Virus record (IMG/VR): IMGVR_UViG_3300032085_001464
Span: 30,757-94,756 of that record
Length of the DNA: 64,000 nucleotides
From: a virus
Direction: 5' to 3' (one strand)
The position numbers were made by a program, and so were the translations under genes. Shown piece after piece: positions 11,918-55,966 of this stretch. Below the pieces are notes generated by a model. That model ran no database searches, was not told where the DNA came from, and was given only the letters and a program-made list of their open reading frames with translations. Position 1 is the first letter of the stretch, and the number at the start of each line of letters is the position of its first letter.

Positions 11918-11919
11918 AA

Positions 11920-17398: not shown

Positions 17399-17471
17399 GC
17401 CTCAAAATCTATAGGTGAGCACCTTTTTTATATTTAGGTATGGTAGAATATATATTATAAAGAGCCTTACT

Positions 17472-18907: not shown

Positions 18908-19698
18908 ATATTTAAAATCCTATCAACATTATTCATAGTGAGAATATATGTACCAGGATTCTGTACTGCAATAGCAGCTGCCTTATTAGCAAAACAAATT
19001 GCTTCATCCATTGACGGAAGTTGAATGTAATAGAAAACTAAAGATGCAAGGAAAGTATCTCCAGCTCCAGTCACATCAAATGTCCGAACAAGATCTGCAC
19101 ATGGAAACTTTTTCTTATTCCATGCAGCACCCTCAGACCCCATGGTAACAATCATATTCGTAGAGTTTGGAATATGATCTGGATCTAAACTCTCAAATTC
19201 TTTCTTGTTAATTTTATAGATGACATTACTGTGCTCCGTAGGAAGTATAGTTTTTTTCGTATCCACAAATATCTTAGTATTAGGATACCTACCAGCAATG
19301 TCACTGATTGTTTTTGCGTCGGGAATATAACCTTTGTTATAGTCCGAAATGACAATAGCATCATATGTTTCATGCAATAAAGCCATCTGCAGTTCAGATG
19401 GATGCAAGGGTTTTACATCAGGTTCATTATCTACTCGGACAATCTGTTGGTTAGATCTAATATCAATATATCTCGTCTTAGTGAGAGGTTCCTTATTAGT
19501 AAGAAAAGTTACATTAATACCAAGAGACTCTAGATTTGCATGAACATTAGCAGCCATGCCAGGTGCCTGTTCTTTTTGACTTTGAATCAATATAGGAACT
19601 GGTGCCTCTGGGCTTAGTCTATTGCATGGACCATAGACCCATTCATCAGTACAACTATCCCCGATCAATAATACTTTGTATGGTCTTGCTAGTTGCAT
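18904..19698 (-). CDS. PfkB-family heptose kinase (HldE domain I-like)
   Basis: 264 residues. It opens YKVLLIGDSCTDEWVYG with an RLSPEAPVPI segment, typical of the HldE/RfaE kinase domain, and carries the PfkB signature DVTGAGDTFLASL (about 214-226, catalytic D). It would phosphorylate a heptose 7-phosphate at C1. In bacteria this domain is usually fused N-terminally to the nucleotidyltransferase; here the two are separate genes in reverse order with a 44-base overlap. Confidence 0.82.
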   Translation of the reverse strand: MQLARPYKVLLIGDSCTDEWVYGPCNRLSPEAPVPILIQSQKEQAPGMAANVHANLESLGINVTFLTNKEPLTKTRYIDIRSNQQIVRVDNEPDVKPLHPSELQMALLHETYDAIVISDYNKGYIPDAKTISDIAGRYPNTKIFVDTKKTILPTEHSNVIYKINKKEFESLDPDHIPNSTNMIVTMGSEGAAWNKKKFPCADLVRTFDVTGAGDTFLASLVFYYIQLPSMDEAICFANKAAAIAVQNPGTYILTMNNVDRILNI

Positions 19699-20059
19699 AA
19701 TCTTCTAACCTAGGGAAAAAATGTAATTCAGTAGCGTACATAGATCCAATGACTGACTTTCCTTCCCAGTCAGATCCTACTACCATTATATCAGGTGCAG
19801 TAACAGCTATGCACTTTTCTAGTTCTTCATCAGAACCAAATAGAACTACATGATCTACAGTCTTAAGACTTTGTAGCATGTATGCTCTATCTTCGGCGTT
19901 ATTTATTGGGCGAGAAGGACCTTTCTTTTCCCTTACCCGCTCATCACTATCAATACCAACAACTACTACATCACCCATAGACTTTGCATACTCTAAGAGT
20001 TGCAAATGTCCAGAATGAAGAATATCAAAGGTTCCGTTTACAAAAACTTTTTTAGTCAT
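19655..20059 (-). CDS. Cytidylyltransferase-fold transferase (HldE domain II-like)
   Basis: 134 residues with the nucleotide-binding motif GTFDILHSGHLQLL (about 8-21, HSGH) and KKGPSRPINNAEDR. It corresponds to the HldE C-terminal domain that makes ADP-heptose from heptose 1-phosphate and ATP. It lies between the carbamoyltransferase and the kinase, overlapping both. Glycerol-3-phosphate cytidylyltransferase has a related fold, but the neighbouring kinase and epimerase favour the heptose assignment. Confidence 0.8.
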   Translation of the reverse strand: MTKKVFVNGTFDILHSGHLQLLEYAKSMGDVVVVGIDSDERVREKKGPSRPINNAEDRAYMLQSLKTVDHVVLFGSDEELEKCIAVTAPDIMVVGSDWEGKSVIGSMYATELHFFPRLEDYATSKTIQSIIDRG

Positions 20060-22848: not shown

Positions 22849-23586
22849 TTATAAAAAGAAAACCTGATTCACTCGATCATGTTCGGTGAACATCCCATGA
22901 TCAATGTTCTGCGAGTGCATCACATCAGATTCATAAAAGATACATCTATTATACACCATTTCAGCCTCATATTCAACTCTCCACTCCCTATCACCATACA
23001 ACCACTTTCTGATGTATGGAAAACATTGTTCGGGTCTTGTAACCTCATCATCAAATCCCTCGGGTTTGTCAATATATTCCGTTACCTTATATGGAAGAGA
23101 CATCTGCCCCTTGTACGAATATAAATTTGTACCACCTTGACATTCTTCTGGAGTATTCAAATAAATCACTGCGCCAAACTGATTGGATTCTGTAGTAAGC
23201 TCTTGCAGATATGAATCTTGATGAGGAATATTGAACCATGGTGCATGAAATGCACTATCATAATTCATAACATTACACATGAATCCAACAGTATCCCACT
23301 GGAATTCATATGATTGTTTATCAATATTCTTAGACCATAGAGAATTGTCTAAACAATACTCATCAAAAAAGGGTTTAAGATTCTTCTTTACTTCTGAAGT
23401 CTCTTTGAATATTCTTTGACCAGGAAGATCGCCTATTAAACTCTCATTTGTTTTTCTCTCTAAGCTTAAAGAGAGATTTCTTATTTCGTCTGGATTTTTA
23501 TAAAAATTATCGGCAATTATAATCGTTCTATTTTGCGGTCCTACTCTCTTAACACTAACATCAAGATTTTCATTAAGTTCAAACAT
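22849..23586 (-). CDS. 2OG-Fe(II) oxygenase-like protein (DUF6445 type)
   Basis: 245 residues. The iron-site candidates are HQD in IPHQDSYLQEL (about 131-141) and a distal histidine in ESDVMHSQNIDHG; AVIYLNTPEECQGGTNLY supplies the core strands. This is the layout of DUF6445, a 2OG-oxygenase relative. It stands between the glycan module and the fibre genes and may belong with either. Substrate unknown. Confidence 0.65.
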   Translation of the reverse strand: MFELNENLDVSVKRVGPQNRTIIIADNFYKNPDEIRNLSLSLERKTNESLIGDLPGQRIFKETSEVKKNLKPFFDEYCLDNSLWSKNIDKQSYEFQWDTVGFMCNVMNYDSAFHAPWFNIPHQDSYLQELTTESNQFGAVIYLNTPEECQGGTNLYSYKGQMSLPYKVTEYIDKPEGFDDEVTRPEQCFPYIRKWLYGDREWRVEYEAEMVYNRCIFYESDVMHSQNIDHGMFTEHDRVNQVFFL

Positions 23587-37280: not shown

Positions 37281-37314
37281 TATTTATATTAGCACTTCCT
37301 CACATATCTGTCAA
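37281..37314 (-). promoter_or_regulatory. psbA promoter: sigma70 hexamers and overlapping TATAAATA
   Basis: TTGACA (37314-37309), 17-base spacer, TAATAT (37291-37286) on the minus strand, and a perfect late box TATAAATA at 37288-37281 overlapping the -10. The -35 lies within the last codons of the halogenase-like gene. Both early/middle and late polymerase forms could use this site. Confidence 0.7.
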
Positions 37315-38412
37315 GAGGTGCGTGTTGTCAATCCAGCTTTTAAAGCTGGTCCCATACCAATGCCCGTAAGAATCGTCATGGTTATAGACAAGTTCATGTC
37401 TACTATTGGATTTGGCAGAACGAATGAAGTCAAAGAAGTACTCATCATAAGAATGATTCTTTGCCATCTGCTCTGCTTCTGACCAGAACATTGTAGCATA
37501 CTTTGACCCGTTTGCGTAGTGCCAGAGAATGAAGTTCTGTATCTCTTCCACATGTGTCACAAGGTCCTGTAGAACTGATCTCTTAGACTCGTTACCCAAA
37601 ATCCAATCAAGAGCTAAACTAGTCCAACGATAATAGGTTTCAACTGAACTTGCTTCTAAAGGCTCAATGAACATTAACCTATTACCATTCAGAATAACCT
37701 TATCATTCTGAATAGGTCTCCTAGCTAAGTAATTTTTAAATTGAAGATGTTCTGTGCCTTGAATACCGTATAGATTTGCTAGGTTTTCTTCTGCCTCAGT
37801 CTTTGATGTATAATTTTGATTGTATAGGTATCCATAATTAGTCTGATCTTTATCAGGTATAGAGAACATCCAACCATCTGGTGTAGCAATACACCTTGTC
37901 CAATGCTGATGAACATCTACATCATTACTCTTCCCAAGAAGAACACTGTTCAATGGATTTTTCAGGATGTTGTAATAAGAAAAATCTTTTGGGGTTCCCC
38001 TACAGTCAAAGACATAATCACAGTCAAGATCATTACAGTCCTCAACATTCTGCTCAATGAACTTACATACTTTTTTATCTTTCATATACTCTCTCAATTT
38101 ACTAGGAGAGTAATGAATAGCTGTGTAGTTCATAGGGAAAGGATGGAAGAATTTATCCTTCTTCTTCCCCCAGTCTTCATATAGGATTCCAGTTTTAAAT
38201 GTTGCATCAATTGGATTATTATACCAATCAATACCAAACACATCTGAAAGAAGAACCACAAAATTTATTAGTGACCCTTGCCCCACCTTTTCGATAGGAA
38301 CTTCTGGATCATAGTAAAGCTCAATCTCCACATCTTGACCGTATGTTTCTGCAAATACGACCATGGCAACAGTCAGTCCAGCGTTACCACCACCAACAAC
38401 ACCAATTTTCAT
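37300..38412 (-). CDS. Tryptophan-halogenase-like flavoprotein
   Basis: 370 residues. FAD motif GGGNAGLT (7-14), the halogenase-like GWMFSIPD (W-x-x-x-IP in place of WxWxIP) and FIEPLEASSVETYY near residue 250 (equivalent to the FLEPLESTG block of PrnA) place it in the flavin-dependent tryptophan halogenase family. At the place of the catalytic lysine of PrnA (K79 in AIKFVNW) it has leucine 77 (GILYEDW). It is also shorter than PrnA (about 540). It may be a non-halogenating flavoenzyme. It overlaps the next upstream gene by four bases. Confidence 0.78.
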   Translation of the reverse strand: MKIGVVGGGNAGLTVAMVVFAETYGQDVEIELYYDPEVPIEKVGQGSLINFVVLLSDVFGIDWYNNPIDATFKTGILYEDWGKKKDKFFHPFPMNYTAIHYSPSKLREYMKDKKVCKFIEQNVEDCNDLDCDYVFDCRGTPKDFSYYNILKNPLNSVLLGKSNDVDVHQHWTRCIATPDGWMFSIPDKDQTNYGYLYNQNYTSKTEAEENLANLYGIQGTEHLQFKNYLARRPIQNDKVILNGNRLMFIEPLEASSVETYYRWTSLALDWILGNESKRSVLQDLVTHVEEIQNFILWHYANGSKYATMFWSEAEQMAKNHSYDEYFFDFIRSAKSNSRHELVYNHDDSYGHWYGTSFKSWIDNTHLLTDM

Positions 38413-40737: not shown

Positions 40738-41526
40738 TTACTTCCCTTCAAAACCAGGAGGAAGTCTGCCAAGGTAAGGATTGAGATCAAAGAATTGATT
40801 CCAATCCTCAACCATATTAGCATCATTCCTCCAAAAGTTCCAGAGGGCATCATGACATTGACGATGATATACATCAACATGAATGTTATGAATATCTGAC
40901 CCAAGAGCAATCTTATACATGAGTATAGGCATTGCGTAGGTCATCCCGCTATTGTAGATGAGATCATCTGCAACTGCACGGGGTTTAATTCTACCATCTA
41001 ACTTGTACTTACCTTTACGAGTGTAAAGAGAAAGTAGCTTTTCAGCATACCTACGATTGATAACATAGGCAGCCGTTGAGAAGTCGTTAATGAACCTGTA
41101 GTGCATTTGCATCACAGGGACGGCAGGATTGATAATTGCGATTTGGAGACAGTCCCATGCAGCAGGTGCATTACGGAAGAAGTCTTTCCAAGAGAATGGC
41201 CAATGCTTGACCACCTCAAGATCGCAGTCATCTTCCATCATTATAGCATACTCTTCGTCGGAATTGTCCAACCAATATTGAATAGCTTTAAGATGGGATG
41301 TAACACATCCGATTTCACCAGAGGACATGTTGTCAGGGTACTTACCTGCAATGATGTCGCTAAGATCATCATTGCGTCCATCGTAAGCAGAGATTCTGGT
41401 GTTCTCCACTTCCCAATATGCAAACTGGTTCTCCATCCATTGGCGGCGATCTTCTTTGCCGTCAAGGTTCAACCAATATACATGGGGGAGATCTTTGAGT
41501 TTTTGTGCAGACTTATTTTTGTCCAT
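40738..41526 (-). CDS. Glycosyltransferase family 25-like
   Basis: 262 residues. VYWLNLDGKEDRRQWMENQF (about 16-35), GEIGCVTSHLKAIQYWLD (about 70-87) and AIMMEDDCDLE (about 93-103) are GT25 hallmarks. This is a GT-A family that adds galactose or glucose to lipooligosaccharides. It is the last gene of the glycan operon and ends two to five bases before a late box. It overlaps its neighbour by 14 bases. Confidence 0.82.
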   Translation of the reverse strand: MDKNKSAQKLKDLPHVYWLNLDGKEDRRQWMENQFAYWEVENTRISAYDGRNDDLSDIIAGKYPDNMSSGEIGCVTSHLKAIQYWLDNSDEEYAIMMEDDCDLEVVKHWPFSWKDFFRNAPAAWDCLQIAIINPAVPVMQMHYRFINDFSTAAYVINRRYAEKLLSLYTRKGKYKLDGRIKPRAVADDLIYNSGMTYAMPILMYKIALGSDIHNIHVDVYHRQCHDALWNFWRNDANMVEDWNQFFDLNPYLGRLPPGFEGK

Positions 41527-42466
41527 GCTTTGCGATCACTTCTTGTACATTAGGCAGGTAGTGGTTTTGTAAGACTGTTGACCAATCAAACTCTTTTGCA
41601 TACTCAAGGATCTCATCACGATGAGTGATGGAGTATTCCCTATTCTTAATTATAGCATACTCTACAAATTCTACATCATCAATCTTAGATTCTGGGATGA
41701 CTGTGATGAATTCCCTATCAGTATCAAGGTTTGCTTGAGCAAACTCACTAACCACTACACCAAGACCAGAAGCAAAAGCTTCCATAATTACAAGAGAGTG
41801 TGCCTCACCATCAGATAGAAGGACAAGGTTGCCATAATCAGTTAGATAATCATGAAGATACTCCTTCTTCCATTCACCAAGATAGTTCTTGTTAGGATTA
41901 AATTTTTTATCTGCAATGTTACCAGCAAAGAACAAGCTATCGATAGACTGAAACTTATGCTGACGCTTACGATAGTCAACCTTAGCAAGGTAGATGCTAC
42001 GATCAGGAAACTCTGGAGTATCAGTAGTGCGGAACAGATCTAGATTGACACCATTAGGTACGATGAACAATCTATCATCAGGAATATCACCAAGAATATG
42101 ATATGCTTTCCTAATACCTTCTGACAGACAGAACACATTTGGTTTAGTCTGTTGAAACTGACCAAAGATTTGGCCATACCCATTCATCTTGTGGGACTGC
42201 TCAAGGTATGCGAAGTGGGTGGTACACGCACAAGGATATTGAATATAAGGATAGAGAACAACCCAGTCATCGTAATGAATATGCACGAAATCGGGACTAT
42301 ACGCATTGACTCTTTTTATAATTTCTCTAGGATCTGAGATATTAATGATGTCAACTTCATGACCGAGTTTCTCTAGGGTAAGTTTATAGTCCCAGATAAG
42401 GCTCTCTACTGCCCCCCATCCTACTGGGGGAATAGCAGTCGCGGGACCAATAATACTAAATCTCAT
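41513..42466 (-). CDS. GT-B glycosyltransferase (GT4 type), copy A
   Basis: 317 residues. The N-terminus has PPVGWGAVESLIWDYKLTLE (about 13-32), and the C-terminal donor domain has LLSDGEAHSLVIMEAFASGL (about 217-236) with the E-x7-E motif of GT4 enzymes. A tandem paralogue lies next to it, sharing GWGAVExLIWDY and the same architecture. Likely retaining transferase on a cell-surface glycan. It ends with lysine-rich residues overlapping the GT25 start. Confidence 0.8.
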   Translation of the reverse strand: MRFSIIGPATAIPPVGWGAVESLIWDYKLTLEKLGHEVDIINISDPREIIKRVNAYSPDFVHIHYDDWVVLYPYIQYPCACTTHFAYLEQSHKMNGYGQIFGQFQQTKPNVFCLSEGIRKAYHILGDIPDDRLFIVPNGVNLDLFRTTDTPEFPDRSIYLAKVDYRKRQHKFQSIDSLFFAGNIADKKFNPNKNYLGEWKKEYLHDYLTDYGNLVLLSDGEAHSLVIMEAFASGLGVVVSEFAQANLDTDREFITVIPESKIDDVEFVEYAIIKNREYSITHRDEILEYAKEFDWSTVLQNHYLPNVQEVIAKHGQK

Positions 42467-43425
42467 AGCAAAGATTGCAACTTCGGAATGTATTCATAAG
42501 CAAGAATATTTTCAAGACCGAATTCGTTGATACCGTATTCTCTAATCTCTTTTCTATACTGCTTCGATACTTTTTTATTATTGTCAATCACATTGAGAAT
42601 GTGATCGATGTTATTTATTTGACTCTCAGGAATCACATCAATCCATGGTTTGGATGTATCCAACTCGGGAGTAATTGCTTCTGAGCAAACAATACCCAAT
42701 CCACAAATCAATCCTTCTTTAATAACCAAAGGAGTAGTGTTCTCTACTTCACTCAACAAAACCATGTTTGAATAACATGTAATGTATTCATTAAGCTTTT
42801 CTCGAATAACCTCTCCCTTGTAATTTGAATTCTTTCTATCAAACTTACCACCAAACTCCATGCGACCCATGAAATCAACGGTATCAATACCTTCTAAAAG
42901 ATACTGACGCTTACGATCTACAATTTGAGAGAAGCATAATGTTCTATCCCAACTGGCAAACTCATCGAACTTATATGGATAAGGACGGACACCAAGTTTG
43001 CTCAACCAAACACGATTAGGATTAGCACCAAATTCCACCCAAGTGTTAAAGTCTTTCTGAGATGAGCAGAAGATATGAAAGTTTCTGTTAGCAGCATACT
43101 TCTGTACCACAGGTCCATAGTTATCTTTACCCCACATGTGAGGAGTATTAACATATGGGTAGTGACTAGACACTACTAGTTTCTTACATAGAGGAACCAA
43201 GTCATCGATGATATCATGAAAGACATCATAATGTAGATGCACTACATCATACTTACCATGTTCCACCTCAAACTTAATCAGTTCTCTGTCTGGAGTATTG
43301 ATAATTTCTACTCGATGACCAAGCTCCCTAAGAATCAGAGTGTAATCCCAGATGAGCATCTCAACAGCACCCCACCCCTCAGGTGGAATGTTCATAATAC
43401 CAGGACCAATTAAAGCAATCTTCAT
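42463..43425 (-). CDS. GT-B glycosyltransferase (GT4 type), copy B
   Basis: 320 residues from the ATG at 43425 (MKIALIGPGIMNIPPEGWGA), preceded by GGAGG; the upstream in-frame TTG is rejected. The C-terminal domain has LLSEVENTTPLVIKEGLICG (about 224-243). It is a paralogue of the next gene with clear divergence in the acceptor side, so the two may add different sugars. ATGA overlaps on both ends couple it in the operon. Confidence 0.8.
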   Translation of the reverse strand: MKIALIGPGIMNIPPEGWGAVEMLIWDYTLILRELGHRVEIINTPDRELIKFEVEHGKYDVVHLHYDVFHDIIDDLVPLCKKLVVSSHYPYVNTPHMWGKDNYGPVVQKYAANRNFHIFCSSQKDFNTWVEFGANPNRVWLSKLGVRPYPYKFDEFASWDRTLCFSQIVDRKRQYLLEGIDTVDFMGRMEFGGKFDRKNSNYKGEVIREKLNEYITCYSNMVLLSEVENTTPLVIKEGLICGLGIVCSEAITPELDTSKPWIDVIPESQINNIDHILNVIDNNKKVSKQYRKEIREYGINEFGLENILAYEYIPKLQSLL

Positions 43426-44279
43426 TGATAATCCTCCCAATACATAGTTTTCTTAATCTGATCAATAAATCCAGGACTATGATACTTAAGTGAATCTACA
43501 TTCTCACATGCACTATGGAATGCAAAGATCTTTTTATACTCATCTTCCTGAGGATTCTTCCCATAAAATGTATCATCTTGCATCTTCAAATCTTGCTGAT
43601 CAGCTGCAGCACAATGATTAAAAGATCCGTTAGTAAATTTGTATCCACCAACTTCATTGAGGGCAAGACAAAGAACTAACTCATCAGTCACTCCAGTATG
43701 GGCACCAGGACGACTAAAGATATCTTCAAAAATTTCATTATACCTTTCAAATAATTTATCATGCTTTTCTTTTTGGAACATGAATGCCCCAGAAGCTCCA
43801 TAGACATACTCAGAATGATCATCAGGGAGATACTTAGATAGTCCTGTCCTATCTACAATCACATTCCTAAAATAATCATCCAGTGTAGGAACCCACCAGT
43901 GCTGAGTAAGTAAAAAATCTTCTCCTGCCTCTTCAATCAGCTCATCAATACGATCATTAACAATAACACAATCAGTATCAAGGTAAATACAATGATCAGT
44001 CTCTACATGCTTGTAGAGATTATAACGCTCTGCCCAGGCATGAGGTTGGAACCAATTACGATCATCATCACCGTTCTTAAGATACCTCTGTTTTAGTTTG
44101 TCTTCATCAGTGAAAACAATCTTAACTTTTGGATCTTCAATATCCAAACGATTGTCCATATCAATGATAAGAATCTCATGGTCCTGCTTAACCCGTTCAA
44201 GGGACTCACAAGCTCTCATGAGATTCGTATAATACTTATCGTCACCGCCGACGATAAAACCAAAGGTTAGTTTACTCAT
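43422..44279 (-). CDS. GT-A glycosyltransferase with DxD
   Basis: 285 residues. LTFGFIVGGDDKYYTNLMRA (about 4-23) opens a nucleotide-sugar domain, and HCIYLDTDCVIVND (about 96-109) has a DxD metal site as in GT8-like enzymes; WWVP and HTGVTDELVLCLALNEVGG give acceptor-side features. The family number cannot be fixed by eye. It is coupled by ATGA overlaps on both sides. Confidence 0.72.
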   Translation of the reverse strand: MSKLTFGFIVGGDDKYYTNLMRACESLERVKQDHEILIIDMDNRLDIEDPKVKIVFTDEDKLKQRYLKNGDDDRNWFQPHAWAERYNLYKHVETDHCIYLDTDCVIVNDRIDELIEEAGEDFLLTQHWWVPTLDDYFRNVIVDRTGLSKYLPDDHSEYVYGASGAFMFQKEKHDKLFERYNEIFEDIFSRPGAHTGVTDELVLCLALNEVGGYKFTNGSFNHCAAADQQDLKMQDDTFYGKNPQEDEYKKIFAFHSACENVDSLKYHSPGFIDQIKKTMYWEDYQ

Positions 44280-45208
44280 AGCAATTTAAGGAGTCCGTTA
44301 ATACGATTAACATATGTATGATGCTCTTTTGTATAGCGCATCTGTCTGAGAATTAATTCTTTATCTTCTCTATACTTTAATCCTGCTTCAAAAAGATCAC
44401 TAATGTTTTCTTCACAGATAACTTCAGGTCCAGCAAATTTAGCAAGCTTGGGTGAGTTGGTAATACCTAAATGCCCGTAACTCATAGACTTAAAAACTCT
44501 ACAAGTTTTGGTGCCCCACCTCTTATGAGTATCATTTCTAAGATCTGGATTCATAAAAGATCTTTGCATAAGATCTCTCATGACTGATCCATCTAAGGGA
44601 TTAACCCACGGATTAGACCAACCAGTTCTCACATCAATTTTAGCACACAATGTTCCAAACTCTTGAATTAGATGGGCATTTTTAAACCTACCTTCATGAG
44701 AAATGCTTCCGATAAAATAGAAAGTATTCTCTCTTGGAATGTTTACCCACTCTTCATCAAACTCTTCTGGCATTAGATCAGTAGCCCATGCAAGATATAC
44801 AATATCGTACCCCTTCTCTTGTGAAGAGATACGATCAATGCAAACTCCAGTATCTAATTCTTCAAAGTCATTTAAATCATGATGGAACTCATAGTTATCT
44901 TTGTCCATACTATCCTGGTGATAGCGAACATCAACTAGTTTCTTACAGTTGCCAAGATACTTCTCAGGGTTTACGCATACATGAACATAGTAAACGCAAC
45001 TAGCAAGGACCGGGATATTTTTATCTGCGTATCCTTCAGTAAAAAACACACAGTCTTCATAATCAAAGTCCGAGTGTTCAGGATATTCATCATCATGGAA
45101 CCAATGAACTTGATGTCCTGCTCTTTCTAGGGCCTTTTTAAATCCCTCATGAACATAAGAGTATGTGTCAGAGTGTAAGGGATACCCCCATAGTACACAC
45201 TTCATCAT
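44276..45208 (-). CDS. GT-B-like glycosyltransferase
   Basis: 310 residues. The N-terminus MMKCVLWGYPLHSDTYSYVH and the C-terminal donor-type segment WGTKTCRVFKSMSYGHLGIT (about 229-248), then SPKLAKF and EENISDLFE, correspond to the glyco_trans_1_2-like C-terminal domain of bacterial surface transferases. No DxD is apparent. Probably uses a sugar nucleotide made in this operon or by the host. Confidence 0.65.
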   Translation of the reverse strand: MMKCVLWGYPLHSDTYSYVHEGFKKALERAGHQVHWFHDDEYPEHSDFDYEDCVFFTEGYADKNIPVLASCVYYVHVCVNPEKYLGNCKKLVDVRYHQDSMDKDNYEFHHDLNDFEELDTGVCIDRISSQEKGYDIVYLAWATDLMPEEFDEEWVNIPRENTFYFIGSISHEGRFKNAHLIQEFGTLCAKIDVRTGWSNPWVNPLDGSVMRDLMQRSFMNPDLRNDTHKRWGTKTCRVFKSMSYGHLGITNSPKLAKFAGPEVICEENISDLFEAGLKYREDKELILRQMRYTKEHHTYVNRINGLLKLL

Positions 45209-45906
45209 ACCCTCCCTAGCATATAATCTTCTGCTTTTTTAGTTTCTCCATCTACACACTTCATTGTATCAATAGTATGGGATGGTACAAGATCAGGATG
45301 AGCCCACCAATCTTCAAAGGGATGCTCATCATCTACAGAAATATTATCAGCGATCAAGATGTAGCCATATGACGAAAGATACTCACGAGAAGCATCTCTA
45401 ACATCAGTACCGTCATTATACGCATCATGTTCAAATGTGATTGTAGCAAATTTATATTTGTCAAGATCAATCTTTTTCAATGCTTCAAATGTGACCGCAG
45501 CTGGTTCACAATCTACTTGTAAGTAATCAAAGTTAGGACCAATACCAACTTCTTCAAACAATGCATCAAAGTCTGCAGTGGTAGCATCCCCTACAGCGAC
45601 CTTTGCACGACGATGTTGATTATATAAATCAGCTTCATGATCTTTGATCTCAAGACCAATACCATTCCACTCGAAGCGAGATTCAAGGAGAGCAGTATTG
45701 TTAGAAATTACTGGATGTCCAGATCCGATCTCAACAAAAGTTCCTTTTGGACGACCATCAGTCATACTCAAAACAAACATATCCTGGTAACACTGCGAGA
45801 AGTTCTGGTGACTTACCAGTTCAAGTCCAGGGAATTTATATCTGAGTTCATCTGCTTTGTCCGCAGTGAAGAAGGTTGGCATTTGCCATGCATTTGGATC
45901 GCTCAT
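45205..45906 (-). CDS. FkbM-like methyltransferase
   Basis: 233 residues. SAM motif GTFVEIGSGHPVISNNT (about 55-71), then GIGLEIKDHEA, and VDCEPAAVTFEAL with LQVDCE (about 129-134) as in FkbM family enzymes. These methylate hydroxyls on sugars or polyketides. In this operon the likely target is a sugar on the glycan. It starts 4 bases into the GT6 gene end. Confidence 0.75.
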   Translation of the reverse strand: MSDPNAWQMPTFFTADKADELRYKFPGLELVSHQNFSQCYQDMFVLSMTDGRPKGTFVEIGSGHPVISNNTALLESRFEWNGIGLEIKDHEADLYNQHRRAKVAVGDATTADFDALFEEVGIGPNFDYLQVDCEPAAVTFEALKKIDLDKYKFATITFEHDAYNDGTDVRDASREYLSSYGYILIADNISVDDEHPFEDWWAHPDLVPSHTIDTMKCVDGETKKAEDYMLGRV

Positions 45907-46598
45907 ACTTGATAAGATGAATTATCTTTGGATAGGTGTACAATTTTTCTTTGGTAGGGATAGTTAGGATAGCATTCTGGGAATGCATAGTCCGGTGCAA
46001 CAGCAAACACCCTATCGTTGTTTTCAATAAAGAATCTATTGAGATGACTTTCATCATGCCATAGAGCAATTATATCATTACTATAATCTTTGTCAACTCT
46101 GTCTTTTAAGAGTTTCATCATAGGAATGACTGCTTCAATTTTACCTCCCCAGAGGCATCCTTGATAGTATTGAAGAGGTTCTCCCTTCACATAAGCTTCG
46201 GATTCAGGATTAGTTTCAAAGGTTCCCGTACCAGTCAAGTAATGACATGGATGGTGAACAGCAACAAAGTCTTTATCATCATCGAGAAGTTCTTCAGAGA
46301 AGACTACAGAGTCAACTCTCATATCAGCATCTAGAAAGAGCAACCATTCATGCTCTTTCAGAAGTTCTTCTGCTGTTAAGATAGTGTGAAATCTTTCTAG
46401 TGTGATTGCAGGCCAGTCTTTATGCTCAATAGGAACAACCGTCATGTTATCAGGTACATCACCACCAAGTTCCCCATCAGTAAAAACATAATATTGTTTT
46501 TTCAGATCAGGAAAAAGAAGTTTTTCGCAAGTCTCATAATATTTCGGAAGGAAATCTAGATACTTGTTTGTCCCAATGAATATAATAGCTACACTCAT
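45903..46598 (-). CDS. Glycosyltransferase family 6 (ABO/alpha-1,3-Gal transferase family)
   Basis: 231 residues from the ATG at 46598 (MSVAIIFIGTNKYLDF), which overlaps the GT11 stop by four bases. Diagnostic features are LFLDADMRV with DxD D90/D92, a YYQGCLWGG segment (about 144-152) and WHDESHLNRFF (180-190); the glutamate E183 matches the catalytic-site glutamate of ABO transferases. GT6 enzymes add Gal or GalNAc alpha-1,3 to a galactose, usually one carrying alpha-1,2-fucose. Many bacterial GT6 proteins have lost DxD, while this one keeps it. Its neighbour is a fucosyltransferase. Confidence 0.85.
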   Translation of the reverse strand: MSVAIIFIGTNKYLDFLPKYYETCEKLLFPDLKKQYYVFTDGELGGDVPDNMTVVPIEHKDWPAITLERFHTILTAEELLKEHEWLLFLDADMRVDSVVFSEELLDDDKDFVAVHHPCHYLTGTGTFETNPESEAYVKGEPLQYYQGCLWGGKIEAVIPMMKLLKDRVDKDYSNDIIALWHDESHLNRFFIENNDRVFAVAPDYAFPECYPNYPYQRKIVHLSKDNSSYQV

Positions 46599-47404
46599 AT
46601 CACTTTCCATCCTTCACAGTACAAATCTTTTGTATCATTTGTTTTATCTAGAGGAGGTCCGAACCAGGTTTTAGGAGCGATGACTTTCTTATTCTTATTA
46701 GTAGAGAGCCACGCTCCCCACCAACTAAAAGAACTATTTGCAATAATAAAATCACTGCAGAGAGACATCATACAAAGATCAAGATACTGATCATTTGTTT
46801 GAGAAACTAAGAATCTATCGTTATCGAAAGTTGATTCATCCAAACACCATTCGGGATCATCCGAGAAGATAATCACTTCCCGTTCAGGACCGAAGTATGT
46901 TAACGCTTCCTTATAGTAATTTATATCACAAATAGGATGGTGCGAATAATTAGCATAATCACTACGGCGAATATGAAGAGCGATAGGATTTGTTACATCC
47001 ATCAACATCTTCTTACAAGGCTCTAGATAATCCTCAGTAAAAGTAAAGTCCTTCAGAATATCTTCCCTGATATGTTTGAAATATTTTTCAGACTGAAAGA
47101 ATCCAAAGAGACTAACAAAGTCTGGACAATTATTAAACAGATTCTCATCAAAGTGATAAAACTCTTCTCTAACAATAGGGCGATCAGAATCAATGTACTG
47201 AACTTGAAGAGGATTTAAGTCAGTCAATTCAAAAGGAACAAACAACTGGTGCTCATTCCATTCATCATCATTACTCTTAAATTTTGAAGGAGGGACACAA
47301 TAATTAAATCCCCTGTTAGCAGCAATGCCTTTTACTGCAGCATACTGAAACATTTGATTGGCAAGACGCTCTTTCATCTTGCCGACATAATTAATACCAA
47401 TCAT
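46595..47404 (-). CDS. Glycosyltransferase family 11 (alpha-1,2-fucosyltransferase type)
   Basis: 269 residues. Features of GT11: RLANQMFQYAAVKGIAANRG (about 13-32), FGFFQSEKYF (about 100-109), the GDP-fucose motif HIRRSDY (144-150) and NSSFSWWGAWLS (about 223-234). It transfers L-fucose from GDP-fucose to a galactose-type acceptor. The two genes upstream make GDP-fucose, the next gene downstream is GT6. This would make an H-type, then A/B-type, structure. Confidence 0.9.
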   Translation of the reverse strand: MIGINYVGKMKERLANQMFQYAAVKGIAANRGFNYCVPPSKFKSNDDEWNEHQLFVPFELTDLNPLQVQYIDSDRPIVREEFYHFDENLFNNCPDFVSLFGFFQSEKYFKHIREDILKDFTFTEDYLEPCKKMLMDVTNPIALHIRRSDYANYSHHPICDINYYKEALTYFGPEREVIIFSDDPEWCLDESTFDNDRFLVSQTNDQYLDLCMMSLCSDFIIANSSFSWWGAWLSTNKNKKVIAPKTWFGPPLDKTNDTKDLYCEGWKVI

Positions 47405-48354
47405 CTTGTTTGAATATCAGTGTTTGCAGTATACCATTCATAGGTCTTACGAAGACCATCTAGTAATTTATAGTTCGGCTTCCAACCTTTTTCCAAGAGT
47501 TTTGTATAGTCTAAGGGACGCTTTGGAGTTCCATCTGGTTTAGATACATCCCAACAGATGTCTCCAGGGTAACCAGTAACTTTAGCAATCATCTCTGCTA
47601 GCTCTTTAATAGAAACATCTTCACCTGACCCCACATTCAGCAACTCTGCCTGACTATAGTTATCCATGGCGAAGAGACATGCATCAGCAAGATCATCTAC
47701 ATGGAGAAACTCCCTACGAGGGTCTCCTGTGCCCCAGCAGGTGACCGGATCGTTACCTTGAGTCCAGTTATTAAACTTCTGCATCATCGCCGGAATGACA
47801 TGCCCATTCATGGGGTGGAAGTTATCATTAGGACCATATAGGTTAGCAGGCATAAGAGAAACACTCTTGAATCCATACTGCTTGTAGTAGGACTTGAGCA
47901 TGTAGATACCATGAATCTTAGCTAGAGCATATGCATCATTAGTAGGCTCAAGTTCTCCAGACATCAACGACTCTTCTTGTACAGGAGTCTCTGCAAACTT
48001 AGGATAGATGCATACACTTCCCAAAAACAAAAACTTTTTAACACCGCTTTTCCAAGCATTGTGAATTAGATTGTTTTGAATCTGAGTGTTCTGATAGATG
48101 AACTCTGCCGAATATGTATCATTGGCGTGGATGCCACCGACACGAGCAGCAGCATCAAATACATAATCAATTTGTTCATAATCAAAGAAACTTTCTACAG
48201 CATCTTGATCCATAAGATCAAGTTCTTGCCTAGTCCTAGTAACAATGTTTTCATACCCTTCATGTTCTAAACGACGAACAATAGAAGATCCAACTAAACC
48301 ACGATGACCAGCGACATAAATCTTTGAATCTTTTTTCATTGTTCTAAGTTTCAT
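47401..48354 (-). CDS. fcl: GDP-L-fucose synthase
   Basis: 317 residues. GHRGLVGSSIVRRLEHEG (about 16-33) is the NADP-binding motif; SVCIYPKF with the catalytic serine and AYALAKIHG with Y and K follow the Fcl pattern, and DPRREFLHVDD is the family tail motif. It turns the GDP-4-keto-6-deoxymannose made by Gmd into GDP-L-fucose by epimerisation and reduction. Coupled to GT11 (ATGA). Confidence 0.93.
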   Translation of the reverse strand: MKLRTMKKDSKIYVAGHRGLVGSSIVRRLEHEGYENIVTRTRQELDLMDQDAVESFFDYEQIDYVFDAAARVGGIHANDTYSAEFIYQNTQIQNNLIHNAWKSGVKKFLFLGSVCIYPKFAETPVQEESLMSGELEPTNDAYALAKIHGIYMLKSYYKQYGFKSVSLMPANLYGPNDNFHPMNGHVIPAMMQKFNNWTQGNDPVTCWGTGDPRREFLHVDDLADACLFAMDNYSQAELLNVGSGEDVSIKELAEMIAKVTGYPGDICWDVSKPDGTPKRPLDYTKLLEKGWKPNYKLLDGLRKTYEWYTANTDIQTR

Positions 48355-49601
48355 GGGGCGATTACAACTTCAGGTTCTGGAAGAGGGAACAAGAAACGCT
48401 TTCCTTTAAACTTAGGATTCTTAAGGAAGAAATTTCTAAAGTGCCAAGGTAGAACAATATGAAGATCATATTCATTCATCATAATGTCTTCTTCATCCTT
48501 AATAGGAATCCATGTACCAGGTGTAAATGATCCATCCTTATCAGGATTAACATCACCAATAGCCTCTACATCATCAGGACCAATCTCCCATGTTTGAAGA
48601 GTCACATTACCTTTAGTACTAGCACCTAGACAACAGATCTTTGCATTATTTGATTTGTAGAAGTCCATGATCTTCCAGAACTGGTCTTTACAATCATTAA
48701 TTCTCTGAGCAAATTCTTCCCAAGGCTCAATAGTATCTAACTTCTTTTCAAGTTCTAGAGCGATGATACCAGTGAGTTTAGTTGTACACTCTTTACGCTC
48801 ACTATTAGTAGCGTGAGTAACAACAACAGAGATGCTGCCACCATTGACATCATTGAAATCAAAATCAACAATCTTGAATCCCGCTTTGTCCATGATGTAT
48901 TTAAGTTGTCTCATACCATAGTAAGACAGATGCTCATGACACACAGTATCAAAAGAATTCTGCTTCAGCATCTCAGGCATGTAGCTCTGCTCAAGAACCC
49001 AGATACCCTGAGGATCAAGGACTTCATGGACCTGACGAGCAAACTCACAAGGATCCTCTAGGTCATAGAACATAGAGAATGATGTAATGACCTTTGCCTT
49101 TTGCTTACCAAACCGCTCACGGAAGGCATCAGCAGAGAAGAAGTCTGCAATGTAACTCACATGGTCAGGGATAAAATCTCTAAACTTTTTAGAGGTAGGA
49201 TCAATACTCATGAGCTGAAGATCATGAGGGAAACAACTTAGGAAGGTGCCATCATTACCAGCAATATCAACAACAATATCACCCGACTCTAGTTTAGTAT
49301 CCGCCTTGATTTTTTCTGCTTTCTCACGCAAGTGACGGATCATAGAACCATTCAAACCAGAACGGTATCCATATTCTTCACCATACATGGTAGGAAGATC
49401 AAAGGTATGTTCTAGTTGAACATGCCCACATCCACCCTTCTTCTCATCGCATTTGACAAGAGCTAAAGGACCCCTATACATTCCAAAGTCAATCGTTTTT
49501 GGAAAAATACCAGAGAGATACTGATCACCAAGATCGAGTACCGTAACTAGATGTTCGTTACCACAAACTCTACATTTTTCAATTTTGTAAAATTTATTCA
49601 T
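48351..49601 (-). CDS. Sugar C-methyltransferase with zinc-binding N-terminus
   Basis: 416 residues from the ATG at 49601, which overlaps the gmd stop by four bases. The N-terminal cysteines C10 and C13 (KCRVCGN) with [11 protein letters not shown] form the zinc site of Methyltransf_13-type enzymes; the SAM motif is [17 protein letters not shown] (about 107-123), and the C-terminal domain has [13 protein letters not shown] typical of the Methyltransf_14 part. Relatives methylate a keto-sugar carbon, so a branched 6-deoxysugar is likely. The sugar may be made from the same GDP-4-keto intermediate that Gmd produces. Confidence 0.85.
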
Positions 49602-50590
49602 TGTCCGTAAATACACATGTCTTGTACAAGTTCCGAAAAACTAATATCTGGTTCCCATCCGAGGACAGTTTTAGCCTTGGTATAATCACCCAGTAGTTGT
49701 TCAACTTCTGTTGGGCGGTAATATTTAGGGTTGATGCGAATGATGTCTCTGTTCATACATTTACAGAAACCAACCTCATCCAATCCCTCTCCACGCCACT
49801 CAATACTGAATCCATAATACTGAGAAGCTTCTTCAACAAACTCCCTAACACTACGCATCTTACCAGTGGCAAGAACAAAATCGTCAGGAGTATCATGCTG
49901 AGAGATCATCCACATACCACGAACAAAATCTTTAGCATGCCCCCAATCACGCTGAGCATCCAGATTACCAAGCTCTAAAATATCTTGCAGACCTGCAGAG
50001 ATCTTTGACAATCCCATCGTGATCTTACGGGTAACGAAGGTTTCACCTCTCCTAGGGGATTCATGGTTGAATAGGATACCATTACTAGCATGGATACCAT
50101 ACGCTTCACGATAGTTTCTGACCATCCAGTAAGAGTATAGTTTTGCCACCCCATAGGGGGATCTTGGATAGAAGGGAGTTGTTTCTTTCTGAGGAACTTC
50201 TTGTACGAGTCCATACAATTCACTAGTAGATGCCTGATAGAACTTACAGGGATGATCTAATAGACGAATAGCTTCCAGAAGACGCAGTGTTCCTAGAGCA
50301 TCAACTTGACCCACATACTCAGGCATCTCGAAAGACACCTTAACATGGCTCATTGCACCAAGGTTATAAACCTCAGTTGGTTTGATCTTTTGAATAATAC
50401 TGATAAGATTACCAGCATCAGTCAGGTCTCCATAATGGAGATGAATACGATCATAGATATGATCAATTCTATGAGTATTAATAAGAGAAGAACGGCGTAC
50501 AATGCCATGAACTTCATATCCTTTTTCAAGGAGAAGTTCTGCAAGGTACGATCCATCCTGTCCTGTAATACCAGTTATTAATGCAATCAT
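49598..50590 (-). CDS. gmd: GDP-mannose 4,6-dehydratase
   Basis: 330 residues. [20 protein letters not shown] (about 3-22), [10 protein letters not shown] (about 119-128) with the catalytic Thr/Ser and Glu, and [15 protein letters not shown] with Tyr and Lys define GMD. It makes GDP-4-keto-6-deoxy-D-mannose, the branch point for fucose and other 6-deoxysugars. It heads the operon of eleven minus-strand genes ending at 40738; no clear consensus promoter is visible directly upstream, where small genes are packed. Confidence 0.95.
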
Positions 50591-52766: not shown

Positions 52767-53362
52767 TTAAACATGAAGGTGTAATTAACTCTTCTGTGAT
52801 TGGAACCTGGTTTCATCGAAACTCTATTTGTTTCGTGAAAGTACTTGGAGTTGAATATGAGAAGACGATTATACGCATATGGTATAATCGTCTTCTCTGA
52901 TCTAGTATACTCCAGATATTTCCGAATCAACTTGACATCCGTATTATACTCACGCCATGTCCATGTCGGAGGCGGTTTGATATCGTAAAGAATCAAACCA
53001 TTTTTCTCTGGATCTTCTACAGAAGAATCTGGAGTGACCCAGAGATTCACATTATAACATGCTGGGTCAGCATGTGGAGTCACACCTTCGGCATTATTGT
53101 CGTAAACAAATGCCCATCCTCTATCAAAATGACCAAGGAATGGGAACCTTGTTTCCAACCCTGTTATTATAGCAGAAAGAATGGGAAGGCGCAACCTCTC
53201 TTTAGAAAAATTAAGAGAGTAGTAGTCTTCATAGATATCATCCGGGTCTTCTGCATTGAGAGCGTACTCCCTAAGCTCATCGATGACTTCGGGGAGGAAT
53301 AGTCCATCCTCCACATGATATCTATGTTCCTGAATAATCTTCTTTAGAATATTTGAGTGCAT
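52757..53362 (-). CDS. 2OG-Fe(II) oxygenase-like protein
   Basis: 201 residues. TPHADPACYNVNLWVTPDSS (about 94-113) gives the HxD iron site, and FHETNRV with NHRRVNYTFMF gives the distal histidine and arginine. It is longer at the N-terminus than the next members. Its last codons lie inside the tRNA-Arg, so gene and tRNA share one transcript or need processing. Substrate unknown. Confidence 0.75.
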   Translation of the reverse strand: MHSNILKKIIQEHRYHVEDGLFLPEVIDELREYALNAEDPDDIYEDYYSLNFSKERLRLPILSAIITGLETRFPFLGHFDRGWAFVYDNNAEGVTPHADPACYNVNLWVTPDSSVEDPEKNGLILYDIKPPPTWTWREYNTDVKLIRKYLEYTRSEKTIIPYAYNRLLIFNSKYFHETNRVSMKPGSNHRRVNYTFMFKTQ

Positions 53363-53852
53363 AGGTAAAACGATGATCCGAATTCAAAGGAGTTGCTCTA
53401 TGCAAAATCCAAGAAGTAAATTTTAATAAAGTATTAGGGACGGGAGGGACACCAATAATTTTATTGTCCAAGAAGAACTCCGTACATCCCCCCTCATCTA
53501 CTCCAGTATAATTTTTGTTGGCATAGAAAATGAAAGTAACTTCATCTTGATCAATATCACAGTCTTTATGAAAGTTTGCGATCTCTCTAGGAGCAAAGCA
53601 ATTAATGTATGCTCGGTATAATTTATACTCCTGAATCTCTGGATATCTAGCATAGATTATGGTTTCTAAGATGCCTACAATGGCATCATCTTCTTCATTT
53701 TCTGGATCTAATTCACAAATCAATCCTGTTGGTTTGTGGGAATCATCGTCTCGCTCACCATATGCATACTCAGCGTCATATGCATACTCACTTACTTCTC
53801 TAAAGTCTTCTGAAGATAGAGCTTTGTCAAGGGAAAGAATGTTTGGTTTCAT
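53322..53852 (-). CDS. 2OG-Fe(II) oxygenase-like protein
   Basis: 176 residues from the ATG at 53852, which overlaps the next stop (ATGA). The iron site is HKDCDIDQDEVTFIFYANKN (about 93-112, HxD-like H-K-D), then WILHRATPLNSDHRF with the distal histidine and arginine. The end overlaps the following gene by 41 bases. Prolyl-4-hydroxylase-like. Confidence 0.72.
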   Translation of the reverse strand: MKPNILSLDKALSSEDFREVSEYAYDAEYAYGERDDDSHKPTGLICELDPENEEDDAIVGILETIIYARYPEIQEYKLYRAYINCFAPREIANFHKDCDIDQDEVTFIFYANKNYTGVDEGGCTEFFLDNKIIGVPPVPNTLLKFTSWILHRATPLNSDHRFTYALKYSKEDYSGT

Positions 53853-54415
53853 AATGCGTCGTTGAGCTCCTGTACTCTCCATACCACAGTGTATCTATAC
53901 ACATGAGGATGCCGTGGTCCTAGTCCTCTATGTTTAATCTCCGATGGGAAAATTAGTACCCTACCAGGTACATATTCATGCTCTTCTATAACATTATCTT
54001 CATCATCAAGTAGTTGAAACTGACCACCCCATTCTAAAGTATCCCATTCCAAATTCGGCATGTACATAATTGTATAGGAACCTTCTTCTCCATCTATATG
54101 ACTAGTCCCATCACAAAAAGAATGCTGTAAGTTAAAATCAATTCTATTAAGATAAAATCTTTTATCAAGAAGCTCTTCTAATTCCTCCAACATATCAAAG
54201 AAAATCTCACTGTCATCCATGAGATTTACTACTTTGTTTATTGACTCCCTTTCAAATATGTTTTCCCCCATCAATCTATGAGTTCCATTCTCTCCATAAG
54301 GAACTGAAGTACCGTTCGCAATGTTAGTAGCAGTTACTGGTAGGTTTTTGATTTGCGTCTCAACCTTAACCATATACGAAAGCTCAAATTGCTTATCAAT
54401 TACTGTTGCAATCAT
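53849..54415 (-). CDS. 2OG-Fe(II) oxygenase-like protein
   Basis: 188 residues. HIDGEEGSYTIMYMPNLEW (about 106-124) is the H-x-D segment, then RVLIFPSEIKHRGLGPRHPH with the distal histidine and YRYTVVWRV with the arginine. A coupled start (ATGA) links it with the next gene. Together with its three neighbours it forms a tight run of oxygenase genes. Confidence 0.75.
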   Translation of the reverse strand: MIATVIDKQFELSYMVKVETQIKNLPVTATNIANGTSVPYGENGTHRLMGENIFERESINKVVNLMDDSEIFFDMLEELEELLDKRFYLNRIDFNLQHSFCDGTSHIDGEEGSYTIMYMPNLEWDTLEWGGQFQLLDDEDNVIEEHEYVPGRVLIFPSEIKHRGLGPRHPHVYRYTVVWRVQELNDAL

Positions 54416-54551
54416 CTAAAGTCCTATTATAAATCACAACTCGACCATTCTCATGCGTAAAAACTAACTCATCATCTGGATGCCACATTAGTTCTTCAAA
54501 AAGAGCATTGAGCTTGTCCATATCCTCATAAAGTTGATTAGGATTTGTCAT
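54396..54551 (-). CDS. Small hypothetical protein (51 aa)
   Basis: From the ATG at 54551: MTNPNQLYEDMDKLNALFEE, then WHPDDELVFTHENGRVVIY. Strand pair after a helix. Overlaps the oxygenase start by 20 bases. Function unknown. Confidence 0.5.
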   Translation of the reverse strand: MTNPNQLYEDMDKLNALFEELMWHPDDELVFTHENGRVVIYNRTLDDCNSN

Positions 54552-54747
54552 TGTTTTCCTCCTTTGTTTTGTGGTTGAATTCAATTACAATTTTTTCGTG
54601 AGTTGTTGTTCTATCAGAACAATAATAATGCATTAATTCACCGTTCAATATTTTACAAACATTATCTAGTTGTAATTGGGTGACAAACTCTTTAAACCCA
54701 TCATCCATCCAAGATTTATTCGATCCTGGTGTGTTAAAATCATCCAT
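54538..54747 (-). CDS. Small hypothetical protein (69 aa)
   Basis: From the ATG at 54747: MDDFNTPGSNKSWMDDGFKE, then LQLDNVCKILNGELMHYYCS and a strand-forming end. Overlaps the next start by 14 bases. Function unknown. Confidence 0.45.
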   Translation of the reverse strand: MDDFNTPGSNKSWMDDGFKEFVTQLQLDNVCKILNGELMHYYCSDRTTTHEKIVIEFNHKTKEENNDKS

Positions 54748-54752
54748 TATTA

Positions 54753-54959
54753 TTACCAAAAATTATGTTTGAAAGAGTTCTTTTCGAGATCTTCATAATA
54801 TTTTATCAATCTCTCTACTTGTTTTTTATCAGTACCACAGGGAGCATTCTTTAAACAAATAAGAATACATTTTTCATCACCGATAGGAGGTTTAATAGAA
54901 AACCCCCACTTATCTACTTTACCCCTCGGTGCTTCGCATGGATCAAATTCATGTGGCAT
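54753..54959 (-). CDS. Small hypothetical protein (68 aa)
   Basis: From the ATG at 54959 (MPHEFDPCEAPRGKVDKWGF), which overlaps the previous stop by one base (TAATG). Contains CILICLKNAPCG and a C-terminal helix. Function unknown. Confidence 0.45.
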   Translation of the reverse strand: MPHEFDPCEAPRGKVDKWGFSIKPPIGDEKCILICLKNAPCGTDKKQVERLIKYYEDLEKNSFKHNFW

Positions 54960-55273
54960 TAGTCTCGCTGTCTCCAATCATCAGGTTTGTCTTGGTGAAA
55001 CCAACTCTTGATATCGTCAGCATCAGTAAATCCCTTCTTGTGATTGGATGGATCGGGATCTCCTAAACCCATCCTATTCAGAAAATCGTCTGTGCTACCT
55101 TCTTCGATATTTTGAGATGCTTGGCGTCTTGCCATCTTTAACATCTCATTAGCAGATGTATTTGCCTTAGCAAGTTTCTGTGCCCAAACCATATCATCTA
55201 ATTTAACTTTTTCTCCATTAGCAATACATTTACAAATAAACTCCAGCTTTAGTCGGTACTGTGTGGAAAGCAT
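54959..55273 (-). CDS. Small helical hypothetical protein (104 aa)
   Basis: MLSTQYRLKLEFICKCIANG begins an all-helical N-terminal half with MVWAQKLAKANTSANEMLKM, followed by a disordered DPDPSNHKKGF stretch and a tail WFHQDKPDDWRQRD. Common as an uncharacterised protein of cyanophages. A CTAAATA-like box lies upstream at about 55285. Confidence 0.55.
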   Translation of the reverse strand: MLSTQYRLKLEFICKCIANGEKVKLDDMVWAQKLAKANTSANEMLKMARRQASQNIEEGSTDDFLNRMGLGDPDPSNHKKGFTDADDIKSWFHQDKPDDWRQRD

Positions 55274-55300
55274 TCGGAACCCCTAGCAAACTTATTTAGT

Positions 55301-55966
55301 CTATACTTGGACCCAGTGATGTGGTGAAGTGACGACATTTTCGTAGTTGTGGTCTACATTTACAGTAGAGGTCACGAAGATATCATAAACGATTGAAGCT
55401 CTAAAGTCAACTCCATTAAACTCTGTTACCCTATGCAAAATATTAGATGGAAAAATAATTAGATCACCATCTTCTGGATCTAAACTGTAAATACCATAAT
55501 CATCATTAACATTCAATGGAAGATTATCCATATAACCTTCAGAGGCAAGAGTCAATGTTCCACCATTCCCCTGAGTTCTTAAGTAGTAGATACCACTAAA
55601 GTGAGATCCCTTATGCAAATGATCTGGATTGCCACCCTCGTCTGGTCTACACACATTGGGCCAGGACTTTTGAAAGAAGATGTCATGATCATAATCCTTG
55701 TCATCTTCAGTTTGTCTACACATACCAGATAGATACTGCCTCGTAGCATGTGCCATCTGAGCATTCAACCAATAAAATTCTTTAGTTTTATGTAAGAGAA
55801 AAAACTTTGGTATGTCTTGGTCACCAGTAAAGTTACCATTATCTTCAATCTCTTCTAAGTTTTTATAGTAAAACTCTTTACATAGATCCATCATTCCTTT
55901 CCACTCTTTTTGTGGACAGGGAACATTTGATCTGTAAATTGCTGTTGGAAAGATATGTTCTATCAT
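55301..55966 (-). CDS. 2OG-Fe(II) oxygenase-like protein (PF13759 type)
   Basis: 221 residues. It begins MIEHIFPTAIYRSNVP, as the family usually does, and has DHLHKGSHFSGIYYLRTQGN (about 115-134), GGTLTL, and DGDLIIFPSNILHRVTEFNG with the distal histidine and RASIVYD with the arginine. It is a clear member of the group also present at 31300. Substrate unknown. Confidence 0.78.
   Translation of the reverse strand: MIEHIFPTAIYRSNVPCPQKEWKGMMDLCKEFYYKNLEEIEDNGNFTGDQDIPKFFLLHKTKEFYWLNAQMAHATRQYLSGMCRQTEDDKDYDHDIFFQKSWPNVCRPDEGGNPDHLHKGSHFSGIYYLRTQGNGGTLTLASEGYMDNLPLNVNDDYGIYSLDPEDGDLIIFPSNILHRVTEFNGVDFRASIVYDIFVTSTVNVDHNYENVVTSPHHWVQV

Follow-up and report, generated by a model that had tools for sequence, protein, structure and literature searches.

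A virus-borne operon that may build a branched, blood-group-like sugar structure was identified in a stretch of 64,000 nucleotides (the window), which is part of the 94,756-base IMG/VR virus record IMGVR_UViG_3300032085_001464. Five open frames on the minus strand overlap head to tail in the order gmd, a sugar C-methyltransferase (CMT) gene, fcl, GT11 and GT6, and the last two genes form a pair that is conserved in viruses. Photosystem-type, PhoH, nrd and tail genes, together with tRNAs, fit a T4-like cyanophage as the source of the DNA. With a probability of roughly 0.4, the operon would supply such a phage with a GDP-mannose-derived L-sugar for an H-then-A/B-like branching reaction, probably on host surface glycans. 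An earlier note, made from the DNA letters alone, had read the same genes as a cassette for synthesis of the H and then the A or B antigen. The identities and arrangement that it gave for these five genes were borne out; plain fucose as the first sugar became doubtful, and its A/B label was not supported.

The two glycosyltransferases were examined by profile, motif and structural comparisons. GT6 scored 88.5 bits against a Pfam cut-off of 25 and holds both a DxD motif (i.e. DAD) and WHDESHLNRF. By sequence it matched BoGT6a at 6.4e-29 and human ABO transferases at best at 3.3e-20, and a model (28 rows; predicted local distance difference test [pLDDT] 88.0) superposed on BoGT6a with a Z of 31.2 and on a human enzyme with a Z of 27.9, giving a GT-A fold of the ABO/BoGT6a type with DXD and WHDE in place. 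As the metal motif is DAD, a metal-ion requirement is expected for this enzyme. GT11 scored 92.5 bits against a cut-off of 23.9 and contains HIRRSD, a form of the HxRRxD motif. Its sequence had no match in PDB at E<=1; the model (pLDDT 92.1) nevertheless had the GT-B fucosyltransferase fold, all 50 Foldseek matches listed being POFUT1, FUT8, NodZ or plant FUT1 (best E 9.6e-07; query-length-normalised template modelling scores from 0.46 to 0.61 among the matches listed). GT11 is thus predicted to be a fucosyltransferase-type enzyme; an alpha-1,2 linkage from GDP-L-fucose is characteristic of its family. Chance similarity of either protein was ruled out by scores far beyond chance. The four-base overlap of the two genes was also found as described, the bases ATGA being common to the stop codon of GT11 and an internal Met codon of GT6 (46598); a longer GT6 frame is possible from an alternative start at 46610, 12 bases before the inner Met, giving a product of 235 instead of 231 residues.

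The distribution of the pair was then assessed across viruses. GT6 relatives occurred in 71 phage records (by first word of the name, 60 Synechococcus, four Prochlorococcus, three 'Marine', two uncultured and two 'Bacteriophage'), and one scan of IMG/VR found them in 444 stretches, which rules out an oddity of a single phage. Loci were pooled from three alignment-led scans (the best 80 each of 444, 309 and 316 relatives), a first GT6 scan (10 loci), a GT11 scan (the best 80 of 563) and six cultured phages. The resulting 230 GT6 loci, among which the same contig could recur, were reduced to 104 representatives under 95% identity, and the removal of 13 with <5 kb upstream left 91 non-redundant viral loci. 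GT11 was present in all 91, lying directly upstream of GT6 (<=60 bases) in 73, further upstream in 13 and downstream in five (i.e. L077, L241, L244, L246 and L273), three of these directly. The gap between the two genes was -13 to +2 bases in 50 of the 91 loci, so that the stop codon of one touches or overlaps the start codon of the other. Other island genes were far less often adjacent, with GTd directly upstream of GT6 in five loci and GT25 and an FkbM-like gene directly downstream in six and 16, respectively. Identity to the window fell to ~47%, indicating that the coupling of GT11 and GT6 is old.

The remaining three genes point to a GDP-mannose-derived sugar as the first donor. Gmd scored above its equivalog cut-off. 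Fcl aligned over its full length to E. coli GDP-fucose synthetase and retains the catalytic S, C, Y, K and H residues (residue list as given in PMC3539893), although it scored 439.6 bits against an NCBIfam equivalog cut-off of 500. Both genes for the core of GDP-L-fucose synthesis are hence present, as the earlier note had said, but the CMT gene intervenes and would add a modifying step between Gmd and Fcl. The CMT protein combines zinc-binding, S-adenosylmethionine and C-terminal C-methyltransferase domains (PF08421, PF13489 and PF08484), as in the sugar 3-C-methyltransferases TylCIII, TcaB9 and MtmC, and has their catalytic His/Glu region. Its nearest solved chain was D-mycarose 3-C-methyltransferase (1.9e-41), and it was aligned to 4rv9 and 5t64, two of the 10 PDB matches listed. 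By domain order and nearest structures CMT is a sugar 3-C-methyltransferase, methylation at C3 being assigned by homology.

Viral relatives of CMT (81 loci, 52 representatives) carried the CHEH motif in 52 of 52 cases, part of this motif being included in the search pattern. Dropping 16 representatives for short flanks left 36. In 33 of these, gmd and fcl were the direct neighbours of CMT on either side; one had CMT before fcl, and two had it next to a gmd homologue. GT6 was held by 21 of the 36. Among bacterial loci (the best 80 of 351 relatives), 45 had a gmd match of >45% identity near CMT, none had an fcl match of >40% identity and none came from a cyanobacterium-titled record. A search of 50,697 phage records at E<=1e-10 returned five CMT matches, i.e. 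Synechococcus phage DSL-LC02 (63.7% identity, with the gmd-CMT-fcl order) and four uncultured phages (24 to 37%). A comparable combination has been described for Coxiella, where an in silico route to GDP-L-virenose by gmd, a TylCIII-type methyltransferase and a fucose-synthase-type enzyme was proposed (PMC3539893). That route, likened here by description only, differs in being proposed for a bacterial O antigen.

These genes were weighed against a reading with plain GDP-L-fucose as the donor. In it, a true H disaccharide would be formed by GT11 and extended by GT6 with Gal or GalNAc to an A or B determinant, and CMT would serve another sugar or a part of the pool. Such a reading is rather unlikely for the window, even though Gmd is intact, Fcl has all of its catalytic residues, the GT11 model matches fucosyltransferases, the nearest relatives of GT6 are ABO-type enzymes and a gmd-fcl module without CMT adjoins the pair in 24 of the 91 loci. 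The position of CMT inside the gmd-fcl operon makes plain L-fucose doubtful in this phage, and the near-constant placement of CMT in the viral loci argues the same. A sibling record (G001, 179,846 bases), which exactly matches 29 of 32 sampled 60-mers of the window (the three unmatched ones, from window position 58,001 onward, fall beyond its end), contains a single full-strength gmd match. As the sugar-making genes next to this pair vary among related viruses, the first sugar is probably not ordinary fucose, and a C-methylated 6-deoxy-L-hexose appears likelier.

The second sugar was approached through the GT6 donor pocket. Gln and Cys occupy the donor-selecting positions of the phage enzyme (266 and 268 in the numbering taken from PMC4202792), where human GTB (4frq) has Met and Ala and BoGT6a has Ala and Gly. 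The phage residues are presumably also different from those of the human A enzyme. Gln and Cys were kept in 87 of 87 sequences of a GT6 set whose IMG/VR loci came from the scan with 444 relatives, which did not select for Q-G-C, and no in-frame stop was found among these 87. DAD, Q-G-C and a C-terminal Lys were present in all 104 representatives and WHD in 103, conservation that was partly selected since a Q-G-C pattern was used in the GT6 scans with 309 and 316 relatives, a His-Pro pattern in those with 444 and 316, and a WHDE pattern in that with 444. The donor of the second sugar is not readable from GT6, and the proposed A/B label is not supported; these pocket residues also speak against the plain-fucose reading in its A or B form.

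In the preferred reading, Gmd would convert GDP-mannose to GDP-4-keto-6-deoxy-mannose, which CMT would methylate, by homology at C3. Epimerisation and reduction of the methylated sugar by Fcl would then yield a GDP-C-methyl-6-deoxy-L-hexose of the methyl-fucose or virenose type. GT11 would move this sugar onto a galactose-like residue, to which GT6, with its expected metal ion, would also attach a second sugar in alpha linkage. Most likely, the acceptor would be an intermediate of a host surface glycan that faces the cytoplasm and is exported by host machinery, and the infected cell would display an altered surface.

The genes that accompany the pair differ between related viruses. With modules counted anywhere <=9 kb from GT6, the 91 loci had a GDP-mannose 3,5-epimerase in 30, gmd-fcl in 24 and gmd-CMT-fcl in 19; minor forms were epimerase plus gmd (two loci), gmd plus CMT (one) and fcl alone (one). 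Two cultured-phage epimerases matched the plant GDP-mannose 3,5-epimerase at 2.3e-82 (Bellamy) and 6.2e-81 (S-CAM9) as against 5.5e-15 and 3.5e-20, respectively, for fucose synthetase. This epimerase was found at E<=1e-40 in 37 phage records, often under a different name: it was called UDP-glucose 4-epimerase in 10 and nucleotide-sugar epimerase in 10, and only S-SCSM1 had the name GDP-mannose-3',5'-epimerase. From their gene content, gmd-fcl modules are predicted to supply L-fucose and epimerase modules GDP-L-galactose, i.e. L-galactose. Several fucosyltransferases are reported to accept GDP-L-galactose (PMC8787198), and a plant mutant is reported in which L-galactose can stand in for L-fucose (PMC6899859).

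A broader proposal, possible but somewhat less probable than the reading given at the outset, is that of an exchangeable H-antigen-like system in which one conserved GT11-GT6 pair is fed by any of three modules, so that a single type of branched determinant would carry L-fucose, L-galactose or, in this phage, a C-methylated 6-deoxy-L-hexose. The surface of host or virion would thereby be varied and competing phages or grazers shut out. If true, surface variation among cyanophage lineages through an exchangeable first sugar would be somewhat like ABO variation in animals.

Adaptation of GT11 to its donor module was considered. Module labels required at minimum seven changes when mapped on the tree of GT11 and 10 when mapped on that of GT6. 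When neighbours of >=75% identity were left out, modules of nearest neighbours agreed in 65 of 73 loci for GT11 and 59 of 73 for GT6, and in 43 loci where GT11, GT6, GTd and GT25 all occur the agreement was 39, 35, eight and 24, respectively, the 75% cut not being equivalent across genes that change at different speeds. With all neighbours included, agreement in these 43 loci was 39 for GT11, 37 for GT6, 40 for GTd and 38 for GT25. Specialisation of GT11 is therefore unproved, as GT6 and two other island genes agree about as well.

Several observations weigh against an operon that makes a GDP-mannose-derived L-sugar for branching by the pair. GT6 was present in only 19 of 38 flanked non-redundant GT11 loci; the 19 loci without it had no module in nine cases, the epimerase in eight and epimerase plus gmd and fcl in two. 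No recognised donor module was found in 14 of the 91 GT6 loci. Among the six cultured phages with the GT11-GT6 pair, full-strength gmd (PF16363 >500 bits) occurred in ACG-2014f and DSL-LC02, and the other four lacked it (best PF16363 scores of 246.5 bits in Bellamy, 89.5 in S-CAM9, 244.3 in SynMITS9220M01 and 89.8 in S-PRM1). The Gln/Cys pocket gives no identity for the second donor, and nearest-neighbour agreement with the module was nearly the same for GT11 (68 of 73) and GT6 (67 of 73). Furthermore, the nearest solved relatives of CMT act on dTDP-sugars.

The site of the glycan was considered from the export side. Among the ATG-initiated open reading frames (ORFs) of >=100 residues in G001, a Kyte-Doolittle scan found four with >=3 hydrophobic spans, namely PsbA, PsbD and a pair of short ORFs, of 116 and 105 residues, judged to be spurious. 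No flippase, polymerase or transporter was seen in G001 by this crude hydrophobicity scan, G001 itself being possibly incomplete. The product would therefore depend on host export, as with lipopolysaccharide (LPS) or capsule intermediates, or remain in the cytoplasm on targets such as proteins of the phage. An unlikely alternative to the host surface is that the glycan is carried by the virion, on collagen-like or fibre proteins hydroxylated by 2-oxoglutarate (2OG) oxygenases and primed by GT25. The apparent lack of export genes agrees with this, as do GT25 inside the island, 2OG-Fe(II) oxygenase matches adjoining it (three at or over the cut-off, one below) and a 547-residue collagen-like GXY protein in the sibling record (L370:17777-19420; G001 77777-79420). 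However, the Collagen match of this protein (25.9 bits) is under the cut-off of 27.2, its gene is far from the island and published proposals favour the host surface (PMC2984593, PMC9602691). DNA glycosylation was rejected as a function, a review reporting no evidence for it in cyanomyoviruses (PMC2984593).

Modification of the host surface against superinfection, which the earlier note had suggested for this phage, has been proposed before for cyanophage LPS-type clusters (PMC2984593, PMC3037559); the cassette is not special to this phage. An option raised for such clusters in PMC3037559 is that they are stuffer DNA, i.e. head-filling genes with no selected function. For these genes this is highly improbable given the conservation, partly pattern-selected, of the GT6 motifs in the 104 representatives, the 87 GT6 sequences free of in-frame stops and CHEH in every viral CMT representative.

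Cyanophage GT6 enzymes, surface-sugar clusters and a superinfection-exclusion role for the latter are already in print. PMC3961637 mentions two cyanophage GT6 and reports that almost every bacterial GT6 known at the time had NXN, PMC3037559 describes LPS clusters near hli03 and tRNAs in the T4-like cyanophages P-SSM2, S-SM2 and S-SSM7, and PMC9602691 lists GDP-mannose dehydratase, GDP-L-fucose synthase, GDP-mannose 3,5-epimerase and alpha-1,2-fucosyltransferase in S-SCSM1. The portions available of these published descriptions do not mention the GT11-GT6 pairing, a CMT inside gmd-fcl or module exchange, and no publication on the pairing, donor exchange or CMT operon in phages was found among best-ranked results of a search that reached few subscription papers. 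DSL-LC02 resembles the window in having gmd-CMT-fcl, GT11 directly before GT6 and GT25 at the end, but has six genes between fcl and GT11 and an annotation without a blood-group-type reading; its T4-like setting with tRNA, nrd and psbA genes nearby, shared with S-CAM9, is also that of the window. BoGT6a and human GTA/GTB share their fold, WHDE and acceptor His-Pro with the phage GT6. The latter has DAD as in vertebrates, where BoGT6a has NXN, and has no membrane anchor and the Gln/Cys pocket. In E. coli O86, blood group B is formed by successive action of the GT11 WbwK and the GT6 WbnI (PMC4202792). This system, likened by description only, differs in its bacterial chromosome, a GT6 that as a rule is of NXN type and plain fucose.

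Cyanophage surface-sugar clusters have been described since at least 2010 with no predicted product in the literature consulted, and the stuffer-DNA question was raised for them (PMC3037559). With a donor module, GT11 and GT6 as their conserved core, such clusters would have an assayable product and a reaction order in many phages of the group, and the phage GT6, which is small, bears DXD and is unusual in its donor pocket, could serve as a comparison enzyme for the ABO family.

The five genes belong to a longer overlapping minus-strand run that continues through a putative methyltransferase and four ORFs to GT25 (Table 1). Of the decorating neighbours named in the earlier note, the C-methyltransferase was confirmed by its three domains; the FkbM assignment was not, as the product of 45205-45906 did not itself match any Pfam family at E<=1 and its family matched PF05050 weakly in two of six aligned members (best 1.3e-4). 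ORF 41513-42466 was the sole one of the four ORFs above a Pfam glycosyltransferase cut-off, and it shares phrog_33732 with 42463-43440. The glycosyltransferase match of 44276-45208 is under the cut-off, and 43422-44279 had no informative Pfam or PHROG-type profile match.

Table 1. Coordinates of genes in and related to the sugar island (window positions unless a locus is named)
Feature	Position	Strand	Evidence
gmd	49598..50590	-	TIGR01472 527.9 bits vs cut-off 415; PF16363 3.3e-146
Sugar C-methyltransferase (CMT), 421 residues	48351..49616	-	PF08421, PF13489, PF08484; overlaps gmd and fcl
fcl, GDP-L-fucose-synthase-type epimerase/reductase, 317 residues	47401..48354	-	E. coli GDP-fucose synthetase 3.4e-102
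GT11, predicted fucosyltransferase-type glycosyltransferase with HIRRSD, 269 residues	46595..47404	-	PF01531 3.7e-26; phrog_2644 1.5e-103
GT6, ABO/BoGT6a-type with DAD, Q-G-C pocket and WHDE	45903..46610	-	PF03414 4.7e-25
Putative FkbM-like methyltransferase	45205..45906	-	PF05050 matched by 2/6 aligned members
ORFs 44276-45208, 43422-44279, 42463-43440 and 41513-42466	41513..45208	-	three glycosyltransferase-like
GT25 glycosyltransferase, island end	40738..41526	-	PF01755 3.7e-13; phrog_2835 8.4e-114
GDP-mannose 3,5-epimerases	L012:8128-9210; L013:8068-9186

Elsewhere in the window, Pfam matches of psbA/psbD type, PhoH and nrdB were found together with tail proteins and two tRNAs. Matches to 2OG-Fe(II) oxygenases were noted in several places, along with a DUF6445 protein (53322-55966, 11363-11923 and 22849-23586, minus strand), and some of these adjoin the sugar island. 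A second group with a possible role in sugar metabolism (17415-21845) comprises a nucleotide-sugar epimerase on the plus strand, a PfkB kinase and a carbamoyltransferase. A tryptophan-halogenase-family protein (37300-38412, minus strand; PF04820 5.4e-33) is encoded near the psbA-type gene. Lastly, a 1646-residue protein (12458-17398, minus strand) has a subtilase domain (PF00082 1.4e-19) fused to parts that match tail-fibre families and, from this domain make-up, is a predicted protease on a tail fibre.

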